IMG/VR virus record: IMGVR_UViG_3300043420_002038
Coordinates: 1 to 24,982 of that record
Length of the DNA: 24,982 nt
Direction: 5' to 3' (one strand)
Source of the DNA: a virus
Shown here: positions 191 through 24,982 of the stretch, piece after piece
Position numbering within the stretch: the stretch's first letter is position 1
Layout: the number at the start of each line of letters is the position of its first letter
The notes under the pieces: generated by a model
Databases searched by the model: none
What the model saw: only the letters and a program-made list of their open reading frames with translations
What the model was told of the DNA's origin: nothing
Program-made: the position numbers and the translations under genes

Positions 191-198
191 TATTTATT
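191..198 (-). promoter_or_regulatory. Late promoter, AATAAATA
   Basis: The minus strand reads AATAAATA, one base from the T4 late -10 element TATAAATA, 29 bases before the ATG at 162. It overlaps the stop codon of the preceding gene. The position matches the other late-type octamers of this window, which supports it; alone the sequence could occur by chance in AT-rich DNA. Confidence 0.5.
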
Positions 199-1420
199 AT
201 TTCTCTATACTTCTCTTGTATTTTTGAATAAAATTTTTAATTGTTTTAGTCCCTGTCATTTTCATTGCATACTCCCTAAATGCATCAGTTCCAACTTCTC
301 TTTGACTTGCAGGAACACCAGAAACATCTGTCCATTCAGTTAAATCTTTAATCCAAGATTTAAACATTATATTGTCTTCCGTAACACATATCAAATAATT
401 GGGACCACGACGAATAACCTCACCTACCAATCCAGTATTTAAATTTTGGACTTTTTCGCCAATCTTAAAAATATTTTCCCGGTAATACTGTTCTCTTAAT
501 GTAGTCAAATCAAATTCTGGCGCATACCTCCAAATTTCTGCTATGTCTTGTGGTTCTTTCTGTTCTGGTTGTCCACCATCCAACATAGACCTCTGAACGG
601 CAAAAAACAGTGCCTGGGCATCCTTATCTTTAATTCTTTTTGGAATACCAATTTTGAACTTATTATAATTATTCTCAATTGCAGCTTTTCTTAAGCTTGA
701 TGAAGAACTTTCAGAGTCTGGGTCAATTGGACCAGAAGGTATAACATTTATTTCATCGAAATTATAAAGTTTACCATTATGCTGACCAGAAAGTCTTTCA
801 AATTCAGAGACCCTATCCAAACCAGCAACAATGTTTACTTTATCATATCCATCCTCATTTGCTGCCGTCAAAACATCAAATATAGTATTCATGTCCTTAT
901 CATTGATAATATTATCTTTGATCTCCGGAAACATCTTTCTCATATATTTAATTTTAGATGCAGGATCTAATGGATTTCTTTGATTATCCTGCATTCTAGA
1001 TGGATATATTCTTAGTTCTCCACCAGCTGCGATCTCTTGTGCTTTCTTAATCAATTTTTCATGCTTAACTGAAGGTGGGTTAAACTTAGCAAAGACAATA
1101 GTAAGTGGTAAGTCCTGCTCAATTTCTGGTGGAGCAGGCTCTTCTTTTGGTGGACTAATACCTTTTCTTTCAGCTGGATCCGGTGGTGGCTCGACAACTC
1201 TTTGTGGTGTTCTTGGGCCGGTTGGCCCTGGCTCTGGCTTTTCTGGGGAAGGACTTTTTTTACGAATCATCTCAAGATCGCCACCTACAGTTTGAGCGAC
1301 AACTTTTCCGCTTCTATCTACCCAGTTTCCATGACCGTCTGAAACCAGCCCAAGACGATATGCCTTTTCTGATGCTCTCGATCCCCTGAATTCTAGTAAA
1401 AATTGCGAAAACCTTTTCAT
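197..1420 (-). CDS. Nucleotidyltransferase-like protein with capsid-targeting-like N-terminus
   Basis: 407 residues in several blocks. Residues 1-10 (MKRFSQFLLE) resemble the T4 capsid-targeting peptide MKTYQEFIAE of internal proteins. Residues 21-50 form a small domain (YRLGLVSDGHGNWVD), followed by a proline-rich linker (about 57-105). Residues 106-260 look like a cytidylyl/nicotinate-nucleotide-type nucleotidyltransferase: a beta strand with FAKFNPPSVKH (110-120) in the place of the usual FNPxxxGH signature, the segment NPLDPASKIKYMRKMFP, and SSSSSLRKAA (239-247) where the family has its ISGTxxR-like motif. The usual Gly of the GH pair is Lys119, so activity is uncertain. Residues about 318-365 look like a small SH3/KOW-like beta domain. 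The late-type octamer at 1442-1449 suggests a virion or assembly protein. The domain assignment comes from motif reading; the substrate is unknown. Confidence 0.75.
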   Translation of the reverse strand: MKRFSQFLLEFRGSRASEKAYRLGLVSDGHGNWVDRSGKVVAQTVGGDLEMIRKKSPSPEKPEPGPTGPRTPQRVVEPPPDPAERKGISPPKEEPAPPEIEQDLPLTIVFAKFNPPSVKHEKLIKKAQEIAAGGELRIYPSRMQDNQRNPLDPASKIKYMRKMFPEIKDNIINDKDMNTIFDVLTAANEDGYDKVNIVAGLDRVSEFERLSGQHNGKLYNFDEINVIPSGPIDPDSESSSSSLRKAAIENNYNKFKIGIPKRIKDKDAQALFFAVQRSMLDGGQPEQKEPQDIAEIWRYAPEFDLTTLREQYYRENIFKIGEKVQNLNTGLVGEVIRRGPNYLICVTEDNIMFKSWIKDLTEWTDVSGVPASQREVGTDAFREYAMKMTGTKTIKNFIQKYKRSIEK

Positions 1421-1450: not shown

Positions 1451-2080
1451 TTAACCTCTTGGTGGGTTGCTATCATCACTATATCTTGTAGCTCTTTTCC
1501 TAGTAGATCTAGCTCCAGGTGCAACAGATCTATTGGGATCATCTGCGGTCTGGATTACAGGCTTACCTGGTTTTATTTGATCTCCCTTTCTGAGAATGTC
1601 ATATGTCAATGGCGCTCCCTGTGAAGCTAATCTTTGTCTGCCACCTGGTCCAACAAATGTAGGTTGTGCAGTTGGGCGTCTTTGCTCTGCTTCTCTCCCA
1701 ACACTAGTCGATCTATCTCTGCCTAATATTATATCTGCAGTATTAGAAGCAGTTCTTTGTGCTGTAGTTTCTCTTCCCTGACCTGGTGTTGATAAATTCA
1801 TAGTTCTGGATTGGACAGCACCTCCAGAAGAAGATGCGCCCCTATTTCTTATACGAGCTCTAATTTCAGCTGATTGATCAACATTGGTATTTGAAATGCC
1901 AAGCATTTGCCTTCTCTGTTGGGATGCTGCTCTCCGTCGCGCCTTCTCTTCTGAACTAAGTGCCTCATCTAGCAACTCATCGTACCAATCATCGCTGGCC
2001 ACATGAAGTATCTTTAGTGCAGATACCATATCGTTAGCAAATCCATTTTCTACCAAATACTCAGCGATATATAATTCCAT
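1451..2080 (-). CDS. Conserved-looking late protein, probable virion/assembly protein, function unknown
   Basis: 209 residues. The first 40 residues look like a compact helical domain (YLVENGFANDMVSALKILHV, then DDWYDELLDE), a pattern I associate with short N-terminal modules of marine T4-like phage structural proteins. The remainder is low-complexity and basic, rich in Arg, Ser, Thr, Gln, Gly and Pro, and probably disordered. The junction LDE|A (37-39|40) fits the T4 gp21 prohead-protease consensus (L/I-x-E before a small residue), so processing during head maturation is possible. The start at 2080 follows a strong late octamer and a terminator but has no clear Shine-Dalgarno. Function is not assigned; the late promoter and position point to a virion component. 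Confidence 0.7.
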   Translation of the reverse strand: MELYIAEYLVENGFANDMVSALKILHVASDDWYDELLDEALSSEEKARRRAASQQRRQMLGISNTNVDQSAEIRARIRNRGASSSGGAVQSRTMNLSTPGQGRETTAQRTASNTADIILGRDRSTSVGREAEQRRPTAQPTFVGPGGRQRLASQGAPLTYDILRKGDQIKPGKPVIQTADDPNRSVAPGARSTRKRATRYSDDSNPPRG

Positions 2081-2103: not shown

Positions 2104-2111
2104 TATTTATA
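2104..2111 (-). promoter_or_regulatory. Late promoter, perfect TATAAATA
   Basis: The minus strand carries an exact T4 late -10 octamer 24 bases before the ATG at 2080. Its first base is also the last base of the T-tract of the terminator ending the replication operon, so termination of one unit and initiation of the late unit share sequence. gp55, encoded in this window, would be the expected specificity factor. Confidence 0.75.
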
Positions 2112-2133
2112 AAAAAACCTCCCGAAGGAGGTT
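2111..2133 (-). terminator. Rho-independent terminator of the gp43-uvsX-gp41 operon
   Basis: On the minus strand AACCTCC-TTCG-GGAGGTT forms a 7-bp stem (2127-2133 with 2116-2122) with a TTCG tetraloop, followed by a run of seven T (2111-2117, overlapping the stem end). It lies 5 bases after the stop of the 60-residue gene, the last gene of the replication operon. Confidence 0.9.
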
Positions 2134-2137
2134 CAAA

Positions 2138-7655: not shown

Positions 7656-7951
7656 TATTTTTTCAGTAAATTTTTGTATTTGTCTAGGATTTGCTTCCTT
7701 GGTTCAGACATTGTCAAAATCTTGTCGGAACTAATTTTAAAAACATTTTGAGTAGTGTATGAATTCAACCACTGACTTAAAGAAATGCTTTGAGTTACCT
7801 TTTCGTAACTAATTATAAATGGATCAATCAGCTTACAGTTCGGCTCTCCAATTTCTGCAACTATTTCTTCTATTTTTGAAATCAGAACTTCACCTCCATG
7901 TAAAACTAAAATAGAAATCGAGTCATAACTTTCTATTTTTTCTTCACTCAT
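7655..7951 (-). CDS. Small conserved-looking phage protein, possible Sm-like fold
   Basis: 98 residues from the ATG at 7951, preceded by AGAGGA; a TTG four codons upstream is less likely because it sits within that ribosome-binding region. The segment ILVLHGGEVLISKIEEIV followed by CKLIDPFII resembles the Sm/LSm pattern of a strand, a Gly-containing turn with acidic residue, and a second strand. The 134-residue protein at 19008-19412 shows the same pattern (LITGEEIFAKV, LLVSDPIIL). It is the first gene of the operon, directly before gp43 with a TAATG overlap, and is driven by a strong sigma70-like promoter. The Sm-like idea is a visual inference; function is unknown. Confidence 0.7.
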   Translation of the reverse strand: MSEEKIESYDSISILVLHGGEVLISKIEEIVAEIGEPNCKLIDPFIISYEKVTQSISLSQWLNSYTTQNVFKISSDKILTMSEPRKQILDKYKNLLKK

Positions 7952-7974
7952 AAGTCCTCTCAACCTGAACTGCC

Positions 7975-8003
7975 ATTATAGCAAGAAAAAAGGGAGAAGT
8001 CAA
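7975..8003 (-). promoter_or_regulatory. Strong sigma70-like promoter for the gp43 operon
   Basis: On the minus strand TTGACT (7998-8003), exactly 17 bases, then TATAAT (7975-7980), preceded by TGC as an extended -10. This is the closest match to the bacterial consensus among the minus-strand promoters. The -35 hexamer lies in the loop and stem of the hsp20 terminator, and the T-tract forms part of the spacer, so terminator and promoter are physically merged. The first gene begins at 7951. Confidence 0.85.
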
Positions 8004-8014
8004 TGGCTTCTCCC
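7986..8014 (-). terminator. Rho-independent terminator after hsp20
   Basis: On the minus strand GGGAGAAG (8007-8014) and CTTCTCCC (7992-7999) form a perfect 8-bp stem with a 7-base loop, followed by six T (7986-7991). It lies 13 bases after the hsp20 stop. Its loop and stem contain the -35 of the next promoter. Confidence 0.93.
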
Positions 8015-8027
8015 CAAAATAAATCAA

Positions 8028-8459
8028 TTAAAACCAAACTTTTCTCTTTTGGTGTTCTGGGACTATTTTAACAATGTCAATAAGTAACAACCCATCTTCA
8101 AATTTAACTGATTTTATTTCTACATCGTCAGATATTGTCCAGGATCTGATAAATGCTCTATTTGCTAGTCCTTGATGTACATATTCTTTATTGGAATCCA
8201 CATCCTTAGTGCCTTCCACATAAAGTTTATTATTCTCAGTATAAACAGTTATTTGATTCTTTTTAAACCCAGCAAGAGCAATTTCCAATCTAAATTCTGT
8301 ATTACTAGTTTTAATTACATTATATGGAGGATAATTTGATTCTGTTTGCGTTAAGCCATCAAATCTATTAAACCATTCGTCCATTCCAATTGAATACTTT
8401 TCAATGTCATTTAAGAATTTTTGAATATTTTGTGTATTGTATCGAACTAATGCGTCCAT
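8028..8459 (-). CDS. hsp20: Small heat-shock protein Hsp20 (alpha-crystallin domain)
   Basis: 143 residues from the ATG at 8459, chosen because AGGGGA sits 8 bases upstream; an in-frame upstream start would read through a long inverted repeat and add non-conserved residues. The N-terminal region (about 1-45) is helical. The alpha-crystallin beta-sandwich follows: FRLEIALAGFKKNQITVYTE, a KLYVEGTKD strand, ANRAFIRSWTISDDVEI and FEDGLLLIDI. Small heat-shock proteins hold unfolding proteins in a refoldable state without ATP. The gene is common in T4-like cyanophages, often near regA as here, and may assist virion assembly or protect host proteins. It is a single-gene transcription unit: terminators flank it on both sides and it has its own promoter-like element. 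Confidence 0.93.
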   Translation of the reverse strand: MDALVRYNTQNIQKFLNDIEKYSIGMDEWFNRFDGLTQTESNYPPYNVIKTSNTEFRLEIALAGFKKNQITVYTENNKLYVEGTKDVDSNKEYVHQGLANRAFIRSWTISDDVEIKSVKFEDGLLLIDIVKIVPEHQKRKVWF

Positions 8460-8483
8460 GAGTATTCCCCTAAAAGCGAGATG

Positions 8484-8520
8484 TAATATTGTTGGACCCA
8501 ATTGGCATCCAACAATATTA
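8484..8520. repeat. 13-bp perfect inverted repeat in the hsp20 5' region
   Basis: TAATATTGTTGGA (8484-8496) is exactly complementary to TCCAACAATATTA (8508-8520), separated by 11 bases that contain the palindrome CCAATTGG (8498-8505). The hsp20-side -10 element TATAAT (8517-8522) overlaps the right arm, so the repeat covers the -10 and the predicted transcript start. It resembles an operator or a 5' regulatory hairpin. No T-tract follows on either strand, so it is not a terminator. Confidence 0.9.
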
Positions 8521-8522
8521 TA
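8517..8522 (-). promoter_or_regulatory. Putative hsp20 promoter -10 (TATAAT)
   Basis: The minus strand reads TATAAT just after the regA terminator and 57 bases before the hsp20 ATG. No good -35 is found at 16-18 bases upstream, so it would need an activator or a short-spacer arrangement. The strong terminator upstream means hsp20 needs a promoter in this interval. Confidence 0.5.
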
Positions 8523-8536
8523 TATCACTTAAGGAT

Positions 8537-8565
8537 AAAAAATATAGTAGGGTTTACCCTACTAT
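8537..8565 (-). terminator. Rho-independent terminator after regA
   Basis: On the minus strand ATAGTAGGGT (8556-8565) and ACCCTACTAT (8544-8553) form a perfect 10-bp stem with a 2-base minimal loop, effectively 4 bases if the closing pair opens, followed by six T (8537-8542). The first stem base overlaps the regA stop codon. Confidence 0.88.
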
Positions 8566-9002
8566 CATTCAGAATCTAAATTTCTTCCTTTTTTTCCAAT
8601 TGAATATTTTGCCTCCAGGATCCAATCATCCTTTTCTTTATATGGCAATACTTTTATTTGATTCAAAGGAGCAATATCTGAAACTTTATCTGGGTTGACA
8701 ACTGACACCAATCCCCAATCAGATAGAAGTTTAATTATTCTATTTCTACGCTGAATGTCATTTACAGTCAAGTTAGCGTGCTTCCCATCTAAAGCAAATA
8801 ACTCTTTAAAGCTAACAAGGTAATATCTCCCCTGTTTATGGAGTATATGTACCGACTGATACAACTTCTTTTCTTTTCTAGATGCGACACCAATACGAGT
8901 AAGAGTCTCTCTAACTTTTAAGAAATCATCTGGTTCAGATAAAGTAATCTCAACCATCATATCTGGAGTCCAATTTACTTGGGGTTCATTGATAGTAGTC
9001 AT
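8565..9002 (-). CDS. regA: RegA translational repressor
   Basis: 145 residues (T4 RegA is 122). The core is close to T4 RegA: VEITLSEPDDFLKVRETLTR, LYQSVHILHKQGRYYLVSFKE, a LLSDWGL segment and a C-terminal KYSIGKK. In T4 the protein binds mRNA near start codons and represses translation of early genes such as 44, 45 and its own. The ATG at 9002 overlaps the gp62 stop (ATGA) and gives a 15-residue N-terminal extension relative to T4; an internal ATG-ATG pair about 15 codons in would give a T4-like start but has no visible ribosome-binding site. It is the last gene of the clamp/clamp-loader operon, before a strong terminator. Confidence 0.93.
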   Translation of the reverse strand: MTTINEPQVNWTPDMMVEITLSEPDDFLKVRETLTRIGVASRKEKKLYQSVHILHKQGRYYLVSFKELFALDGKHANLTVNDIQRRNRIIKLLSDWGLVSVVNPDKVSDIAPLNQIKVLPYKEKDDWILEAKYSIGKKGRNLDSE

Positions 9003-9391
9003 TTCGTTCCACCGATATCAAGTCTTTGTTTAATAAAATTAATTTGGTCTTTAGTTAGAATATTTAAAACCTGAGATGCTTTCTCGTCACTATAACCATA
9101 ATATTTTTTTATGTATTCTAAATCTTCAACTTTATTTTTTGTGATCCAAGAAGAAAATCTCTTCTTTTTTCTCAAACTATTTAGATAAAATGAATATTGC
9201 ATATCTTTATCTAGATTATTACTAATATTCATCTCATTGGCAAACAAAATGGTGTCTAAGTAAGCAGACAGACACTTATTTATAATGTATGGTGGATATG
9301 ATTTTATATTATCTGGATCGGACTCAATTAAATTTTCTTTTGTAAAATTTAAAGAATTTAGCCAATCTTTTAGTTCATATTTTACTTCCAT
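8999..9391 (-). CDS. gp62: Clamp loader subunit gp62
   Basis: 130 residues, clearly shorter than T4 gp62 (187). The match rests on position (44-62-regA, as in T4) and on the pattern YPPYIINKCLSAYLDTILFA followed by LDKDMQYSFYLNSLRKKKRF and a C-terminal GYSDEKASQVLNILTKDQI, which fits marine T4-like gp62. It forms a 4:1 complex with gp44 that loads clamp gp45. The frame overlaps gp44 by 10 bases and regA by 4, indicating coupled translation, as in T4. Confidence 0.87.
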   Translation of the reverse strand: MEVKYELKDWLNSLNFTKENLIESDPDNIKSYPPYIINKCLSAYLDTILFANEMNISNNLDKDMQYSFYLNSLRKKKRFSSWITKNKVEDLEYIKKYYGYSDEKASQVLNILTKDQINFIKQRLDIGGTK

Positions 9392-10320
9392 TCAACTTCA
9401 CACATAATTTCAGTTAAACATGCAATTAAATTAATCTCACTATCTGCAACAAAAGCACTTCTGTATTGATATTTAGAAATGACCAAAATAGCTGCAGGAA
9501 TAGTACTCTCCACTGCAGTATCATATAAACTATCATATACTTTTCTTAGAATTTTATTTGGGTCATTATCTATGTTCTGGATTACCCACTTTCTAACTTC
9601 AGTAAAATTCTTATCTTTTAAATGTTTAATTAAACTAGAAACTGTTACATCAGAAACATGTGCTAGAATTCCAGAATCCAATTTTCCACTGGATGAGTAC
9701 CTCTGCACTTCATTTAATGTTCGTCTGAAGTCTGGAAAATACTTATTAATTATTCCAGCTAAAGCGGAAGATTCGCAATCAATTTTTTCCAATTCCAAAA
9801 TATTCAAAATCCTCTTCATAAAATCTGAAGCAAGTTTTGGTTTTTCTTTTGGTGGAATTAAAAATTCAATCGCAGCAGCACGAGAGTGCAATGGGGGGAT
9901 TAATTTATTTTTATAATTACATGTGAATATAAATGTACAATTAGTCTGTAGTTCTTCTATGGATGCTCTAAGAGCTAATTGCGCATCATGAGTTAAATTA
10001 TCTGCTTCATCAATTAAGAGAATCTTTTTCCCCGTGTTAGACAAAGAAAGAGTAGAAGCATAATTCTTGACTTTGTTTCTAATTACATCAATAGACCTTT
10101 CATCAGATCCATTAATTACCATAAAGTCTCTATCTAGTTCTAATGCCAATGCTTTGATTGTTGATGTCTTTCCGATTCCAGGTGGACCAGAAAGAATCAT
10201 ATTAGGAATTTTACCAGAATCTCTTACTTCGATAAAAAAATTTTTTATCGATTCGGGTAAAATACAATCTTCCACCCTCTTGGGGGCATATCTTTCAACA
10301 AAAATAAAATCACTATTCAT
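9382..10320 (-). CDS. gp44: Clamp loader ATPase gp44 (AAA+)
   Basis: 312 residues (T4 gp44 is 319). Walker A GPPGIGKT (45-52), Walker B LLIDEAD (101-107), a sensor-1 FTCN segment, and an arginine-finger region HSRAAAIEF where the family has SRC. It hydrolyses ATP to open and place the gp45 ring at primer ends. The start at 10320 lies 3 bases after the stop of the preceding gene. The overlap with gp62 suggests ratio control by coupled translation. Confidence 0.96.
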   Translation of the reverse strand: MNSDFIFVERYAPKRVEDCILPESIKNFFIEVRDSGKIPNMILSGPPGIGKTSTIKALALELDRDFMVINGSDERSIDVIRNKVKNYASTLSLSNTGKKILLIDEADNLTHDAQLALRASIEELQTNCTFIFTCNYKNKLIPPLHSRAAAIEFLIPPKEKPKLASDFMKRILNILELEKIDCESSALAGIINKYFPDFRRTLNEVQRYSSSGKLDSGILAHVSDVTVSSLIKHLKDKNFTEVRKWVIQNIDNDPNKILRKVYDSLYDTAVESTIPAAILVISKYQYRSAFVADSEINLIACLTEIMCEVEWK

Positions 10321-10323
10321 AAT

Positions 10324-10833
10324 TTAAATCCATTCAGGTTTTCGTTCTGGCATACGAAGATAATTAGATGCAACCCAAGGTTTGGACGCGATATACATCT
10401 TGTAAGCAGTAAAAGTATCAATGCTTGTGTCAAGTTTATATTCATCTGGCATTGCACGAACAAAAGAAGTCACATTAGTTATTTTGCCTTTTGGAAACAA
10501 ATAATACGCCTCCAAAAGGGTATTATAACAAGAGTGTGGTTTCCCATATCGAAGCTCAAATTCATCGCAAATGTTCATGCCATGCTTGATAAGCCAATAT
10601 GCATTATCAATCGTTTTTGCTGCCCATTGAGTGCAAGGGTGGTTTCTAAATGCTCCTTTTTCAGTTGAATAAGCCTCGCCATTTTTTTTATGAAGTTCTC
10701 CATAATTGTGATACCAAGGTGAAGCAACAATAGATAGCATTTGACAGCATTCAAGTGCCATCTTGGTTATGTGGCGATCTGGAAGAACAATGGCACTTTC
10801 AGCTGGAAATGGAGAGGTGGCAAATATATTAAT
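10324..10833 (-). CDS. Unknown conserved-looking T4-like phage protein with apparent ATT start
   Basis: The first in-frame ATG is at 10761 (145 residues), but the frame stays open upstream for 28 more codons without ATG, GTG or TTG. That upstream stretch reads INIFATSPFPAESAIVLPDR and continues HITKMALECCQML, which looks like a continuous conserved N-terminus (a pattern like xNIFxxxPxxAAxxxxDKHxxKMxLE that I associate with a family in marine T4-like phages). ATT at 10833 is preceded by GAGGA at a 7-base spacing, so it is the best initiation codon, giving 169 residues. Later motifs include HPCTQWAA and ICDEFELRYGKPHSCYNTL. Function is unknown. It sits between clamp gp45 and clamp loader gp44. 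Alternatives are an ATA start two codons on, the short ATG form, or a base error in the start codon. Confidence 0.65.
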   Translation of the reverse strand: MNIFATSPFPAESAIVLPDRHITKMALECCQMLSIVASPWYHNYGELHKKNGEAYSTEKGAFRNHPCTQWAAKTIDNAYWLIKHGMNICDEFELRYGKPHSCYNTLLEAYYLFPKGKITNVTSFVRAMPDEYKLDTSIDTFTAYKMYIASKPWVASNYLRMPERKPEWI

Positions 10834-10864
10834 TGGAGGATCCTCAACTCATCAAAAATAATAC

Positions 10865-11530
10865 TCAATCAAATTTAGAATCTGGTTCCAATGCAATGTG
10901 ATACTTAACTGACTTCGATTGGCTTTCAAATCTAGACAATAGTTTAGTAGAAATGTACACCTTATATGAGCCTGGTAAAATTTTAATATTTTCCACTTTA
11001 AAGTTTAAAGTGAAGTTTTTGTCAGTTTCACCCACAATAATTGAAAACTCATTGGTAGTGTCGTTCTTTTTGTCTCGCACAACCAAACTAATAACCCCAT
11101 CATGACCTACTGCCGCCAAATCTGGAAGTTGATATACTGCTGATGCCTTTAGTAGTTTTTCAAGTTGAGAGTGATCCAACTGGAAAAATACATCTTCAGT
11201 TGGAAGTTCAATCTCTTTCTCTGGTGGAGAGACAATGACAGAAGGATCAGCAAAAAAGTATTTAACTTTTCGTTTTCCTTCTCGAATAGTTAGATATGAG
11301 CCATTAGAAAAATCTAATTCTGGACTATCATGTAAGCTGATGCCATTCAGAAATTGATTCAAATCATAAATTGCAAAATCCCTAGGGAAGTTTTCTTGGA
11401 CAGTTGCTTGAGCTAGAACATTTTTCATTACCGATATTGTTCGTAGCTGATTTCCCTCTTTGACAAAGATTGATTGATTAATAGAAGCAAAGTTTTTTAG
11501 GATAACAAGAGTTTCACTGGATAATTTCAT
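10865..11530 (-). CDS. gp45: Sliding clamp gp45
   Basis: 221 residues (T4 gp45 is 228). The start MKLSSETLVILKNFASINQS aligns well with T4 MKLSKDTTALLKNFATINSG, and the segments DFAIYDLNQFLNGISL and a PGSYKVYIS strand near the C-terminus match the clamp fold. The trimeric ring tethers gp43 to DNA; in T4 it also activates late transcription through gp55 and gp33. The ATG overlaps the stop of the DUF3310-like gene (ATGA). No gp33 gene is seen in this window. Confidence 0.96.
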   Translation of the reverse strand: MKLSSETLVILKNFASINQSIFVKEGNQLRTISVMKNVLAQATVQENFPRDFAIYDLNQFLNGISLHDSPELDFSNGSYLTIREGKRKVKYFFADPSVIVSPPEKEIELPTEDVFFQLDHSQLEKLLKASAVYQLPDLAAVGHDGVISLVVRDKKNDTTNEFSIIVGETDKNFTLNFKVENIKILPGSYKVYISTKLLSRFESQSKSVKYHIALEPDSKFD

Positions 11531-11874
11531 TTGTTCTCAATTAGGTTTAGATGATTAATTAGGAGCATAGTGTAATGCAATACTTTGAATAGATCTGCTC
11601 TTGGAGTACCTTTAGTGTCATACCTATCAATATATTTTGTGACATTTCCAGCACAGAATCCCTCACGGCGGTTGTGTTTAATTTTATCGAGAGTTTGCTC
11701 TTTGCCGCCGCCAGTTCGATCAACATAATGTTGCCTATATGTGCTCGCAATATACTCTTCAAGTTGCTTAAGGATTTTATCTTCATTGTATCTCCAAAAA
11801 TGATTTGAAGCATTAGAGGTATTTCCCAGATCAATCACATCATTAAAATTGACTGATTTTAATTCATTTTCCAT
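11527..11874 (-). CDS. DUF3310-like protein (possible nucleotide kinase relative)
   Basis: 115 residues from the ATG at 11874. An ATG ten codons upstream is in frame, but the AAAGGAGAA ribosome-binding site lies between the two at the right distance from the inner ATG, so the inner start is chosen. The C-terminal half has the DUF3310 signature: FCAGNVTKYIDRYDTKGTPR followed by DLFKVLHY. Families with this domain are frequent in phages; T7 gp1.7, a nucleotide kinase, is to my knowledge a relative, but no P-loop is visible here so kinase activity is only a guess. It precedes and overlaps gp45, consistent with a nucleotide or replication role. Confidence 0.82.
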   Translation of the reverse strand: MENELKSVNFNDVIDLGNTSNASNHFWRYNEDKILKQLEEYIASTYRQHYVDRTGGGKEQTLDKIKHNRREGFCAGNVTKYIDRYDTKGTPRADLFKVLHYTMLLINHLNLIENK

Positions 11875-11931
11875 AAAGTACTTTTCTCCTTTCGGTAGTA
11901 TCATAATATTAAATGTCCCTAAGTTATAATA

Positions 11932-13044
11932 TCACTCTTCCGCAGAATTGTCAATTTCTACATCAGAATCTTTGTCAAAGTCTTCATCAATTTTATCGTA
12001 AAGCTCAATGAATGAGGATTTAGTATCTTCATCAAACCTAGCAATTGATAGTTTAATTGCTTTTGCTTTATTTTTAAAGATCGAATATGCTTTTAGTAAG
12101 TGAATCAAACGACGAGTAGAAATAATTTCATCAATACCACCATCATAAAATGTTTTACGAATAGCATCACTCCAGTTCACCAATTTCTTGATGAAATCAT
12201 CTTCATTTTCTAGATTAATTGCTTTTGCAAGTTTAGTTAGAATTTTAATCTCAATAGAATTAGATGGATAAGATTGCTCAAAAGTAACACTAAACCGCTC
12301 TAGGAATGCCTCATTAAGAACATTTGTCCCAATAAATCGCCCATCATCAGATCCCTTTCCTTTAGTGTTTGCGGTTGCAATGATATTAAATCCAGGTTGT
12401 GGATGAACTACCTTTCCAATTTTCTTTAAAAATAGTGGCTTGCCTTCCAAAACAGATTGGAGAACCATAATCTTATTTGAGGCAAGATCACACTCATCCA
12501 GGAGAAGAATAGCTCCTCTTTCCATTGCTTCAACTACAGGTCCATTACTCCACACAGTGTTTCCATCTTGTAATCGAAATCCCCCAATAAGATCATCCGA
12601 ATCAGTTTCGATAGTAACATTGAATCGAATTAGCTCTCGTTTCAATTGTGCGCAAACTTGCTCGACGCACATTGTCTTTCCATTACCAGAAAGACCAGTA
12701 ATAAAAACTGGATAAAATAAGCCAGATGAAATAACTTTTTTTACATCAGAAAAACAACCAAAAGATACGAATCCAGGATCTTTTTCTGGAATTAAATTCT
12801 TTTCAGATAGAGGAATTACTGATGGCGCGACATAAGATTTTTCAATAGAAGAAATTGCGTCTTGAGTTACTTCGAGATTCCATTTACCATGACCAGATTT
12901 ATAATTTTCTAGACGACGAGTTACAGTTGGATAAGAAACATTTTTCATCGTGCAGTATGCACGAACATCTGCTGATGTGATCTTATTACCGAACATATCA
13001 AGAAGATCTGAAATGATGTTTTGTTCAGTCATTTTTGTGTACAT
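11932..13044 (-). CDS. cobS: CobS-like AAA+ ATPase (MoxR type)
   Basis: 370 residues. The N-terminal 60 residues form a helix-rich, winged-helix-like segment (ISDLLDMFGNKITSADVRAY, then SYPTVTRRLENY). The AAA+ core has Walker A GLSGNGKT (117-124), Walker B ILLLDECDLA, a sensor-1 ATANTKGKG and an arginine-finger region NEAFLERF, all typical of cobaltochelatase subunit CobS and MoxR ATPases. In bacteria CobS and CobT with CobN insert cobalt in aerobic cobalamin synthesis. In T4-like cyanophages cobS is very common although the host uses a different cobalt-insertion route, so its role is debated. The CobT-like gene directly upstream makes a CobS/CobT-type ATPase-VWA pair likely. It has its own sigma70-like promoter at 13067-13095. 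A second ATG four codons in (13032) is an alternative start; no clear ribosome-binding site favours either. Confidence 0.9.
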   Translation of the reverse strand: MYTKMTEQNIISDLLDMFGNKITSADVRAYCTMKNVSYPTVTRRLENYKSGHGKWNLEVTQDAISSIEKSYVAPSVIPLSEKNLIPEKDPGFVSFGCFSDVKKVISSGLFYPVFITGLSGNGKTMCVEQVCAQLKRELIRFNVTIETDSDDLIGGFRLQDGNTVWSNGPVVEAMERGAILLLDECDLASNKIMVLQSVLEGKPLFLKKIGKVVHPQPGFNIIATANTKGKGSDDGRFIGTNVLNEAFLERFSVTFEQSYPSNSIEIKILTKLAKAINLENEDDFIKKLVNWSDAIRKTFYDGGIDEIISTRRLIHLLKAYSIFKNKAKAIKLSIARFDEDTKSSFIELYDKIDEDFDKDSDVEIDNSAEE

Positions 13045-21941: not shown

Positions 21942-23375
21942 TCACATTAGGTTCTTGACCTGTACTCTACGATAGTAGCGGTTGCTATTGACCTGTAGAC
22001 GGCCTAGACCTTGGCTACCAACATCACCTTCTGCAAATGGATTCGCTACCATTCCGTAGCGAGTCTTGAAGCCAATCTTAGGCTGGAAGGTGTTCTCACC
22101 AACGGCACGAACCATTTGAAGAGGAACATAAGGACAATAGAAGAGTCCTGCGTCATAAGGTGAGGTTCCCTTATATCCTACAACATAGTACTGACCGCCA
22201 TCAGCACCAGGATTGGTTCCACCAGAATAAGGATCGATATATACGCGATACTTACCCATTAGAACGCCAGCAAAAGTGTTGCCGGTGTCATCTACATTTA
22301 GGTTAGCATTTAGGGCAGGGGTGTAATCGAGTACGCCAGCCATGGTTAGAGCTGATGCAACATCAGATGAACACATGATTACATTACCCTTTCCTCTACG
22401 AGTTCTGATTGCAATTGCGTTTGCATCACGCTCGATTTGGAATAGTAGACCCTTGAACTTCTCAACTGACCAACGACCGTTGGAGTCGATATCTAGGTCA
22501 AATACGCCATTGGTAGCAACATTAGTAGCAGCACCCTGCTCAGCAACCTTATAGATGGTTCTGATTACTTCGCGGTTGATTTCAGCAAGAATCTCGGTTG
22601 AGAGAATATTTGCTAATTCCGCTTCAGCATTTAGACCATGGATTGCCTTGAGGTCTTGTGCTAGCTCTAAGCTATACTCGGCCTTTAGTGCTCTTGACTT
22701 TGCCTCAACAAGTACTTTCTCGATTGAGAAAGCCATTTCGTTGAATTGACCACCATTTGCTGAACCTAGAGCTTCAGCATCGCCAGTCTTCATACCTTGA
22801 CCTACATTGTAGCCAAGTGAAGATCCAGCGCCAACTGGATTTAGAATTCCAGGATTACTACCAGTTTGTACGCCACCAGTAGTACCCATACCAGCGACGC
22901 CATCAGTTGCATTAGTAGCACTGTTATTTGCGTTGGTACCAGAGAATGCACTGTTGACTTCGTTATAGAATGCTTCGTCGCCAGACTGGTTTTCATAGCG
23001 TGAACGCATTGCGAAGATTAGTCCAGTAGGACCAGTCATTGGTTGTACACCAGCTAGGTCGTATGCAACCAAGTTAGGCATTGAACGACGGATTAGGCTG
23101 ATTAGAACGGGATCAAAACCAGCAACAGGACCGCCAGCAGCAGCGCCAGTACCTACGCTACTGTAAGCACCATAACCACCAGGAGCATTACCTGAATTGG
23201 TTGGTGACTCCATTAGTACACCATTAGAGAAGGCTTGTTCTTCTCTTAGAAACTTTTCTTGGTTTTCGAGCAAGACAGCGGTTACTGCTTTACGATGAGA
23301 ATCTTTGATTGGATCAAGACCATCATAGTTGAGAAGCGGTGCCCACTTTTCTTGCAGATGCTCGGATTGGAACAT
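21942..23375 (-). CDS. gp23: Major capsid protein gp23
   Basis: 477 residues (T4 gp23 is 521). The N-terminus matches T4 gp23 architecture: EKWAPLLNYDGLDPI, then ENQEKFL, later IRRSMPNLVAYDLAGVQPMT followed by GPTGLIFAMRSRYE. The probable gp21 cleavage is VLME|S (56|57), replacing the T4 site after Glu65. Residues about 150-200 are Gly/Ala/Asn-rich. The C-terminal region KIGFKTRYGMVANPF is typical. The start has AAGAGG 9 bases upstream. Codon use is visibly less AT-rich than neighbouring replication genes, as expected for the most highly expressed phage gene. No late octamer is seen in the 53-base gap before it, so it may be read from the gp22 promoter. Confidence 0.97.
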   Translation of the reverse strand: MFQSEHLQEKWAPLLNYDGLDPIKDSHRKAVTAVLLENQEKFLREEQAFSNGVLMESPTNSGNAPGGYGAYSSVGTGAAAGGPVAGFDPVLISLIRRSMPNLVAYDLAGVQPMTGPTGLIFAMRSRYENQSGDEAFYNEVNSAFSGTNANNSATNATDGVAGMGTTGGVQTGSNPGILNPVGAGSSLGYNVGQGMKTGDAEALGSANGGQFNEMAFSIEKVLVEAKSRALKAEYSLELAQDLKAIHGLNAEAELANILSTEILAEINREVIRTIYKVAEQGAATNVATNGVFDLDIDSNGRWSVEKFKGLLFQIERDANAIAIRTRRGKGNVIMCSSDVASALTMAGVLDYTPALNANLNVDDTGNTFAGVLMGKYRVYIDPYSGGTNPGADGGQYYVVGYKGTSPYDAGLFYCPYVPLQMVRAVGENTFQPKIGFKTRYGMVANPFAEGDVGSQGLGRLQVNSNRYYRRVQVKNLM

Positions 23376-23428: not shown

Positions 23429-24610
23429 TCAGTTTTTAGCCAACATAGAAAGTGCTTTCATGTAAGTGTTCATTGAACCAGAATAATCTTCGTTCAATGA
23501 GACTACACCTTCTGAAAGTGTTTCAGGTTGAGCATTTGGAGATGCAGTTTTGGTTGGAAAATATGATTCCCTTAAAGTCTCCATTTTTTCACGATATTCT
23601 CTTTCACTTTCAAACTCAACACTTTCGGCAAGTGAAGCGAGCTTTTCTTTCTGAGTGGTGGCTAGGCCATCAGATACTTCATCAAAGATTCTATCAGCAA
23701 CCGACTCTGAGAGACGCTTGTTGAGTTGAATATTTCTCTCAATTTGCTCGTTGAGTTTTGTTTCCATTTCATCAAGTTTTTCTACCATATTCTCAAGTAC
23801 ATCATATTTTTCTTCAGGGAGTTGTACATAATGATCTTCAAAAAGATTCTTGAGGTTGCTCAAGAATGATTCAGTTAGTTGCTCTTTAATGCCATACTCA
23901 ACAGCAAGAGTATTCTCTTGCATCCATTCGTCTGCAACATACTCTAGATATGAATCAATACGCTCTTCTAGAGTTTCTTTCATCAATTCAACTTCTTCGC
24001 ATAGTCTTTGCTCGTAAGCTGCTTGATATTGCTCTTCTAGAGCATCACGAATCTCACCTACTTTTGAGCGAAGTGCGGATTCAAAAATTAGTTTTGCTTT
24101 ATCTTTAAATTCTTCTGAGAGTTCTTCGCCTTCGACGAGAGCTTGAACATCTTGATCTACATCAAAAGTTTCTTCTAACTCTTCATCTTCATCATCTTCA
24201 TCTTCATCTGACTCGTCTTCATCTGACTCGTCTTCTTCGTTGATTTCCTCAACTTCTTCTAGAGTTTCCGACTCATCTAGAATTTCTTCTACTTCGTCTT
24301 CAACTTCTTCATCAGCTTCTTCTTTTACTGCCATTTTTTGAATGGGCTCAGCTGCGTGTGCTTTTGCATTCACAACATCGCTTACACTCTTAAGTGTGGC
24401 AGCAGGATCTTTAATTTTAGCTGATTCATCATCAGACTTATAATTTTCTGGTGTAGGTCCACCTAGATCTTCCCAATTACCAGTTTGACCATCAGGAATA
24501 CCTGTGGTCAAATGAGGCATTGCTTCTGCTGGTTTGGCACTTGCGTTTACAGCAGATTTGGATTGCTTTGTGCCTACTTCCATTTCTTGTAAGTTTTTTC
24601 CACGAGACAT
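23429..24610 (-). CDS. gp22: Prohead core scaffolding protein gp22
   Basis: 393 residues, longer than T4 gp22 (269). The N-terminal 95 residues are Gly/Pro/Ser-rich. Residues about 96-150 are an acidic run of Glu and Asp with a repeated SDEDE unit. The rest is predicted helical/coiled coil (KAKLIFESALRSKVGEIRDA onward), as expected for a scaffold that fills the prohead. Candidate gp21 sites are LVE|G (158-160|161) and LSE|G (365-367|368); in T4 the scaffold is degraded to peptides during maturation. Position 21-22-23 and the late promoter at 24650-24657 support the assignment. The ATG has GGAGAG 6-8 bases upstream. Confidence 0.92.
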   Translation of the reverse strand: MSRGKNLQEMEVGTKQSKSAVNASAKPAEAMPHLTTGIPDGQTGNWEDLGGPTPENYKSDDESAKIKDPAATLKSVSDVVNAKAHAAEPIQKMAVKEEADEEVEDEVEEILDESETLEEVEEINEEDESDEDESDEDEDDEDEELEETFDVDQDVQALVEGEELSEEFKDKAKLIFESALRSKVGEIRDALEEQYQAAYEQRLCEEVELMKETLEERIDSYLEYVADEWMQENTLAVEYGIKEQLTESFLSNLKNLFEDHYVQLPEEKYDVLENMVEKLDEMETKLNEQIERNIQLNKRLSESVADRIFDEVSDGLATTQKEKLASLAESVEFESEREYREKMETLRESYFPTKTASPNAQPETLSEGVVSLNEDYSGSMNTYMKALSMLAKN

Positions 24611-24667: not shown

Positions 24668-24982
24668 TTACAAGGAATTTAAAAATTCATCAAATAGTTG
24701 AATTTTTTTCTCTTCTAGTTGTTTTTGGTCAACTAAGGTATTTATTTTTTTCTTTGTATTTTCAAGCAACCAAGAATTTCTTGATACATCATATATCCAC
24801 TCCACTCCTTCCATAATTCCGTTCACAAATGCATCTGGAGCAGATGGATCTGCAACTATATCAGCTGCAGTCGCTAACATAAAATCATCAGAAACATAAC
24901 GAACACCATTTTTTTCTATTAATGAGCCAATACCACGAGAAGAGACTCCTAATTTAACTCCTTCTGATATTAAAGATGAAGC
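24668..24982 (-). CDS. gp21: Prohead core protease gp21, C-terminal part (5' end beyond the window)
   Basis: The frame is open to the right edge, so only the last 104 residues are visible; the ATG at 24880 is internal. The visible part begins ASSLISEGVKLGVSSRGIGS and continues with RYVSDDFMLATAADIVADPS and a helical, lysine-rich tail. GVSSRG is the motif that carries the catalytic serine in T4-type prohead proteases, followed by the conserved DIV.DPSAP segment. The enzyme cleaves gp22, gp23 and internal proteins after (L/I)-x-E during head maturation. Gene order 21-22-23 supports it. Confidence 0.93.
   Translation of the reverse strand, partial: ASSLISEGVKLGVSSRGIGSLIEKNGVRYVSDDFMLATAADIVADPSAPDAFVNGIMEGVEWIYDVSRNSWLLENTKKKINTLVDQKQLEEKKIQLFDEFLNSL

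Follow-up and report, generated by a model that had tools for sequence, protein, structure and literature searches.

A probable T4-type capsid-targeting sequence on a nucleotidyltransferase-fold protein of a T4-like, cyanophage-type virus

The DNA analysed here (the window) is a 24,982-base metagenomic virus contig of T4-like, cyanophage type, whose T4-like cluster of replication and head genes has gp23, gp22 and the final stretch of gp21 at its end. An ORF encoding 407 residues lies downstream of gp41 and mazG, a neighbourhood shared with S-SM2, S-SM1 and Syn9, and its product aligns almost end to end with the 'cytidyltransferase' of Kyanoviridae phages (top match 51% identity, Synechococcus phage B23); homologues in S-SM2, P-SSM2, S-SSM5 and S-SM1 bear the label T4-GC190. 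Homology and gene neighbourhood thus both fit membership of the phrog_395 / T4-GC190 family. The features on which the analysis turns are the following, where a slash in a peptide marks a gp21 junction (predicted in the cyanophages):

197-1420, minus strand: ORF of 407 aa, T4-GC190 / phrog_395 'cytidyltransferase' (phrog_395, E 3e-82) with an N-terminal capsid-targeting-like peptide
1391-1420, minus strand: MKRFSQFLLE, probable T4-type capsid-targeting sequence (pattern, conservation, leader swaps), with a predicted gp21 cut after E10 (between 1391 and 1390) and Phe as P1'
1451-2080, minus strand: ORF of 209 aa, the upstream neighbour, which has a 39-residue leader and is a second candidate for head targeting
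1964-2080, minus strand: the 39-residue leader, MELYIAEYLVENGFANDMVSALKILHVASDDWYDELLDE, ending at the predicted gp21 site LDE/A
2104-2111, minus strand: TATAAATA, late-promoter-like box that follows a terminator-like hairpin and stands 24-31 bases ahead of the first gene of the pair, the 209-aa ORF
21942-23375, minus strand: major capsid protein gp23, with a candidate gp21 junction VLME/S near residue 56
23429-24610, minus strand: prohead scaffold gp22 (T4_CASP; phrog_237, E 1.8e-104), the expected docking partner of a capsid-targeting sequence
24668-24880, minus strand: C-terminal part of the prohead protease gp21 (phrog_207), whose gene runs past the window edge

The two proteins that a capsid-targeting sequence (CTS) presupposes, the gp21 protease (phrog_207) and the gp22 scaffold (phrog_237), are both encoded in the window, gp21 in part. 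Ahead of the 209-aa ORF and the transferase gene stands a terminator-like hairpin, GAACCTCCTTCGGGAGGTTT (window 2115-2134, minus strand), followed directly by the late-promoter-like box TTTTATAAATAG. For the late expression proposed in an earlier note on this DNA, the only sign is this TATAAATA box ahead of the gene pair; such boxes are no commoner across the window than expected by chance, and the late-promoter reading is weak.

The 407-aa protein begins with MKRFSQFLLEFRGSRASEKAYRLGLVSDGHGNWVDRSGKVVAQTVGG (first residues MKRFSQFLLEF); the span 1388-1420 singled out in the earlier note corresponds to residues 1-11, the ten-residue peptide itself to 1391-1420. The likeness to the T4 CTS claimed for these ten residues holds, as M-K-x-F-x-x-F-L-x-E is present and the pattern occurs at gene starts well above chance. 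Across ten cyanophage genomes,.[KR].[FYWL]..[FYW][ILVFM].E was found at 22 of 2401 called gene starts versus 14 of 510,395 internal positions (odds ratio 337, P 2e-42), the 22 genes being not independent because several belong to the phrog_395 / T4-GC190 family. At the DNA level, ATGAARNNNTWYNNNNNNTTYNTNNNNGAR matched 23 times across 15 T4-like genomes and the reversed pattern once, and in T4 it picks out exactly the known CTS proteins IPII and IPIII and gene 61.1. T4 gp61.1 (54 aa, hypothetical; L279 467-631, minus strand) begins with MKTFKEFIKE, which makes it look like an additional CTS-bearing internal protein of T4.

Conservation of the N-terminus was counted over 80 IMG/VR homologues, which represent 37 distinct N-termini. 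F4 is kept in 37/37 of these, F7 and E10 in 36/37 each (the single exception is a sequence whose start falls inside the peptide) and L or I at position 8 in 33/37; M1, K2, F4, F7 and E10 are invariant in a 37-sequence alignment, and positions 3, 5, 6 and 9 are free to vary among the 80 homologues. Since the codons of the invariant residues differ synonymously among homologues, selection acts on the peptide, and conservation of the DNA itself as a promoter or ribosome site is ruled out. Suppressor analysis of T4 IPIII assigned targeting mainly to residues 4 and 7 and processing to residues 8 and 10 (PMC9026906), so the conserved sites coincide with the positions that are functional in T4. The homologues thus retain the N-terminal pattern where it matters in T4 (positions 4, 7, 8 and 10), and the LLE fit to the gp21 consensus, also claimed earlier, is borne out by L8 and E10 and by their conservation. 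Some family members lack the tag, the protein starting with VSFFKKVRTILEG in S-CAM9, with MKTLKELLRKK in HTVC008M and with MALNCIKCYF in Syn1.

Relatives of the window in IMG/VR bear on the predicted cut through the gene upstream of the transferase, in which the same mature protein is found behind either the 10-aa tag or an unrelated leader of ~39 aa; in the window itself, the 209-aa ORF carries the long form (MELYIAEYLVENGFAN...DELLDE/A). In the first such swap, MKTFSQFLEE/AKIDWNAGPRAKAERK in L156 is matched by MELYIAEYLVEN...WYGELIDE/AKINWNAGPRAKAERK in L160, the mature proteins starting with AKIDWNAG and AKINWNAG, respectively, and being identical at 55 of 73 positions from mature residue 1 while their leaders are unrelated. 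A second swap sets L302 and L269 against L169 (80/150 and 62/138 identical), and a third L183 against L185 (186/220 identical); in L183, part of the long leader is left over between the tag and the cargo. The homology break in the first two swaps is at the predicted cut after E10. Moreover, junctions in the N-terminal region of gp23 resemble the end of the tag in these phages (FLSE/A in P-SSM2 and S-SRM01, FLNE/A in S-CAM9, ILTE/T in S-SM1, compared with FLTE/A in T4), the cyanophage cut sites in gp23 being predictions. Leader swaps at that site in relatives and gp23 junctions of the FLSE/A type indirectly support a predicted cleavage after residue 10. The ~39-aa leader, which alternates with the 10-aa CTS in front of the same mature proteins, may constitute a second class of capsid-targeting leader; copies of leader-like domains also occur inside or at the C-terminus of other phage proteins, and the leader may be a general scaffold-binding domain.

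We consider cleavage after E10 in this phage likely, with one complication: P1' is Phe in the 407-aa protein (Ala in 22/37 distinct N-termini), and E10 may therefore be cut slowly or not at all. An alternative is that the peptide targets the protein to the prohead core and stays uncut at E10 in this clade, the tagged protein remaining in the head. Both the window clade and its sister clade have F or Y at P1', where most homologues and T4 IPII/IPIII have Ala, and targeting and processing are separable in T4 (PMC9026906); L/I8 and E10, which both serve processing in T4, are nevertheless still conserved in these two clades, and we regard an uncut tag as somewhat unlikely.

The cargo behind the tag, for which an AlphaFold2 model was made (mean pLDDT 74.6), has the following parts:

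1265-1381, minus strand: residues 14-52, small module with consensus RLGLxSDGHGxWxDxxGxxVAxTxxGxL, modelled as a helix (15-22) and strands (32-51)
1115-1264, minus strand: residues 53-102, Pro/Glu-rich low-confidence linker (pLDDT about 50)
572-1114, minus strand: residues 103-283, nucleotidyltransferase fold of the HIGH superfamily (NMNAT/PPAT), from a fold search of the model
1061-1084, minus strand: residues 113-120, FNPPSVKH, a degenerate form of the TxGH motif of most homologues
689-709, minus strand: residues 238-244, SSSSSLR, the counterpart of MSASKLR in homologues
335-457, minus strand: residues 322-362, SH3-like beta-rich tail in the model, a separate 93-codon gene in Syn1

A nucleotidyltransferase-like domain, as the earlier note had described, is confirmed by the fold match to PPAT/NMNAT (Z about 11, rmsd about 3, about 155 residues). 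The SH3-like tail described with it fares less well: the model has strands at 323-362 and the domain is separable in Syn1, but it has no fold match of its own, the fold-search rows covering residues 103-283 and the fold of the tail coming from the model alone. The separate tail gene of Syn1 (L284 1140-1418) is annotated 'ribonucleotide reductase alpha subunit', which looks like a misannotation, and the Syn1 transferase is devoid of both the tag and the GHGxW module.

Most homologues carry GRFNPPTxGH together with an MSASKLR-like motif, whereas AKFNPPSVKH and SSSSSLR stand in their place in the window protein and its nearest relatives; the (H/T)xGH active-site motif of the HIGH superfamily (PF01467, NMNAT/PPAT) is thus replaced by SVKH in the window protein. 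Pfam gave no match for this protein, and only homologues outside the SVKH clade reach or approach PF01467, while a PDB sequence search with the family profile returned chance-level matches only. Because Pfam is blank for the window protein, its assignment required PHROGs, structure and homologues. Given the change from TxGH to SVKH, the nucleotidyltransferase-fold domain may or may not retain an enzymatic role in the window clade. An action on host NAD has been proposed for NMNAT-like virion proteins (PMC9602691), and phage NAD systems have been surveyed (PMC9503650); together with the NMNAT/PPAT fold, this raises the possibility that the injected protein, bringing NMNAT-like activity in at time zero, takes part in NAD metabolism or counters NAD-depleting defence, a role compatible with a CTS. 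We deem it unlikely, as NMNAT-like activity is putative, the substrate is not predictable from the fold and the active-site motif is degenerate in the window clade.

The same peptide on unrelated cargo, which the earlier note had proposed to look for, was found across cyanophage genomes and IMG/VR loci. In S-CREM2 the tagged ORFs are ORF6 (an S-AdoMet lyase; PF23780, E 2e-19), ORF13, ORF14 (protein-kinase/APH-like) and ORF154 (the cytidylyltransferase), and elsewhere the tag is borne by a family of small proteins (phrog_1742 for the tested IMG/VR example) and by P-SSM2, S-SRM01 and B23 proteins of unknown function. An IMG/VR scan with MK[ST]F.[QE]F[IL].EA matched at least 120 stretches, compared with none for a control using the same codons in permuted order. 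Among the matches listed, which come from short IMG/VR contigs, 84 in kept loci start ORFs and fall into 35 cargo clusters after removal of the tag, and some of these cargos carry recognizable domains (GNAT, PF13508; DPBB lytic transglycosylase; glucosaminidase; DUF6267; DUF5661). Further tagged ORFs occur in the window's IMG/VR relatives, some resembling GNAT proteins or ADP-ribosyltransferases by eye, and Pfam gave no match for those tested. Small tagged proteins with ..YHGTPESS.. or AHYTS.. starts have the look of ADP-ribosyltransferases (compare T4 Alt):

L267 1616-2083 and 2080-2625, minus strand: ADP-ribosyltransferase-like tagged ORFs, by eye
L274 229-642: ADP-ribosyltransferase-like tagged ORF, by eye
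L275 505-957, minus strand: ADP-ribosyltransferase-like tagged ORF, by eye
L300 1211-1858, minus strand: ADP-ribosyltransferase-like tagged ORF, by eye

No Pfam family matched these proteins of L267, L274, L275 and L300. A DUF6267-like neighbour (the KWDGAPA protein) was considered as a second tagged cargo in cultured phages and rejected, as it starts there without the motif; one IMG/VR member does bear the tag.

A second element recurs as well. The module of residues 14-52, spanned by phrog_3561, is found in the S-CREM2 virion kinase (two copies), in the S-CREM2 virion nuclease and in kinases of S-H34, MA01 and S-N03, so that the tag and the GHGxW module are two separate elements common to unrelated virion enzymes. 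In the S-CREM2 genome (L154), the nuclease annotated Cas9 (7704-10313, minus strand) and the kinase (10579-12846, minus strand) have the ~40-aa GHGxW module behind a targeting peptide, as does the window protein; a Pfam search of the 'Cas9', ORF12, gave no support for that label. An amphipathic N-terminus conserved for another purpose (a tail or baseplate part, the membrane, another phage protein) and resembling the T4 CTS by convergence would accommodate the homologues that lack the peptide, and a direct test of head location was not found in the literature for any cyanophage; with the spacing of T4 IPII/IPIII kept, the peptide present on many unrelated cargos and another leader taking its place precisely at an LxE site, we hold convergence to be very unlikely.

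Published mass spectrometry places the family in virions of several cyanophages; absence of the protein from virions had been named in the earlier note as a refutation. T4-GC190 was found in S-SM1 virions (Sullivan et al. 2010, PMC3037559), and S-SCSM1 ORF91 (NMNAT; PMC9602691), S-CREM2 ORF154 (PMC10665884) and S-SZBM1_140 (PMC9146016) were likewise detected in the virions of their phages. All four are tagged, with MKKFSAFLNE/A in S-SM1, MKSFLQFLKE/A in S-SCSM1 ORF91, MKNFSSFLTE/A in S-CREM2 ORF154 and MRFRQFIIE/A, one residue shorter, in S-SZBM1_140. The four S-CREM2 ORFs that start with the strict motif are all in the 52-protein virion list (4/4), the virion nuclease ORF12 has LRFASFMAE/A at residues 17-25, and virion ORF136 begins with MQTFSMFFSE; with the strict-motif ORFs and ORF12 in the list, all four S-CREM2 virion proteins that its authors named and that are neither structural nor lysis proteins bear the motif. 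Counting the motif anywhere in the first 15 residues gives 5/50 virion versus 1/148 other S-CREM2 ORFs (P 0.004). Two small tagged proteins, S-SZBM1_191 and 192, are not among the 30 proteins detected in S-SZBM1 virions, and in the literature on cyanophage virions we found neither N-terminal mapping nor a demonstration of ejection for tagged proteins. The authors of the S-CREM2 and S-SCSM1 proteomes did not exclude co-purification (PMC10665884, PMC9602691), and the tag common to these virion proteins argues for loading instead. That the protein is an intracellular metabolic enzyme (an auxiliary cytidylyl- or NMN adenylyltransferase) contaminating virion preparations, as this caveat and the fit of the fold and of most homologues' motif to an active NMNAT-like enzyme might suggest, is very unlikely, given independent virion detection in several phages alongside other tagged proteins, the loss of canonical TxGH in the window clade and the lack of a Pfam family match.

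Conserved T4 positions, unrelated cargos and virion detection of tagged relatives together support the capsid-targeting reading of MKRFSQFLLE, and our working conclusion, to which we give a probability of about 0.87, is that the first ten residues are a T4-type CTS. By analogy with T4 IPIII, the peptide would bind the gp22 scaffold core during head assembly, presenting F4 and F7 as the contact face, and the 407-aa protein so bound would be enclosed in the prohead. There gp21 would cut after E10 (L-x-E), freeing a mature protein that would stay in the filled head and exit with the DNA at infection; delivery into the host is in our judgement fairly likely. On this view the tag would belong to a loading system in general use among T4-like cyanophages, which would also pack the SAM lyase, the kinase, the nuclease and many small proteins. 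More broadly, and with the balance only slightly in favour, T4-like phages of aquatic bacteria may possess a modular delivery system in which at least two interchangeable leaders at the gp21 site (the 10-aa T4-type CTS and the ~39-aa helical leader, roughly Y-L-x-x-x-[FY]-A-x5-A-x-K-I-x3-S-D/E-x-[WF]-Y ... LxE/A) and a shared ~40-aa GHGxW module load dozens of unrelated effectors (SAM lyase, kinase, nuclease, GNAT, ADP-ribosyltransferase-like and nucleotidyltransferase-fold proteins) to be injected as infection begins.

A tag on unrelated cargos would explain why supposed metabolic enzymes are repeatedly found in purified cyanophage particles, and a cyanophage core gene supposed to be metabolic would then be classed as an 'injected head protein' rather than as 'auxiliary metabolism'. 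The tag may also give a sequence rule from which the proteins injected by T4-like phages of aquatic bacteria can be predicted. The tagged proteins of T4 itself turned out to be anti-restriction factors (PMC12373910), so the tagged set offers a short list of candidates for counter-defence and take-over roles. Our literature searches, whose coverage was incomplete, yielded papers on T4 or other phages only and no earlier report of a CTS in cyanophages.

The closest known system is the CTS of T4 IPII/IPIII (MKTYQEFIAE/A), which shares the length, the spacing, positions 1, 2, 4, 7, 8 and 10, the N-terminal place, the LxE-type end and the use on unrelated cargos; it differs in that the T4 cargo is small and basic, whereas here it is a 407-residue enzyme-fold protein with Phe at P1', the window's relatives infect cyanobacteria and targeting and cleavage are predicted here. 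Within T4-GC190 / phrog_395 (S-SM1, S-SCSM1, S-CREM2 ORF154, S-SZBM1_140), the window protein is homologous over nearly the whole length to most members, with 35-51% identity to those of cultured phages, and the four named have been detected in virions; it differs by the degenerate TxGH of its clade, and the publications consulted on the family do not mention the N-terminal peptide. T4 Alt, an ADP-ribosyltransferase, is likewise a head-carried enzyme with a short gp21-cleaved N-terminal propeptide that is ejected into the host (PMC9026906), but it is another enzyme and is cut at both ends. The ejection proteins of SPN3US/phiKZ, with propeptides cleaved by the prohead protease, are comparable, going by how they are described, as head proteins trimmed by that protease. 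The tag very probably represents the known T4 mechanism extended to a new cargo and a new phage group.
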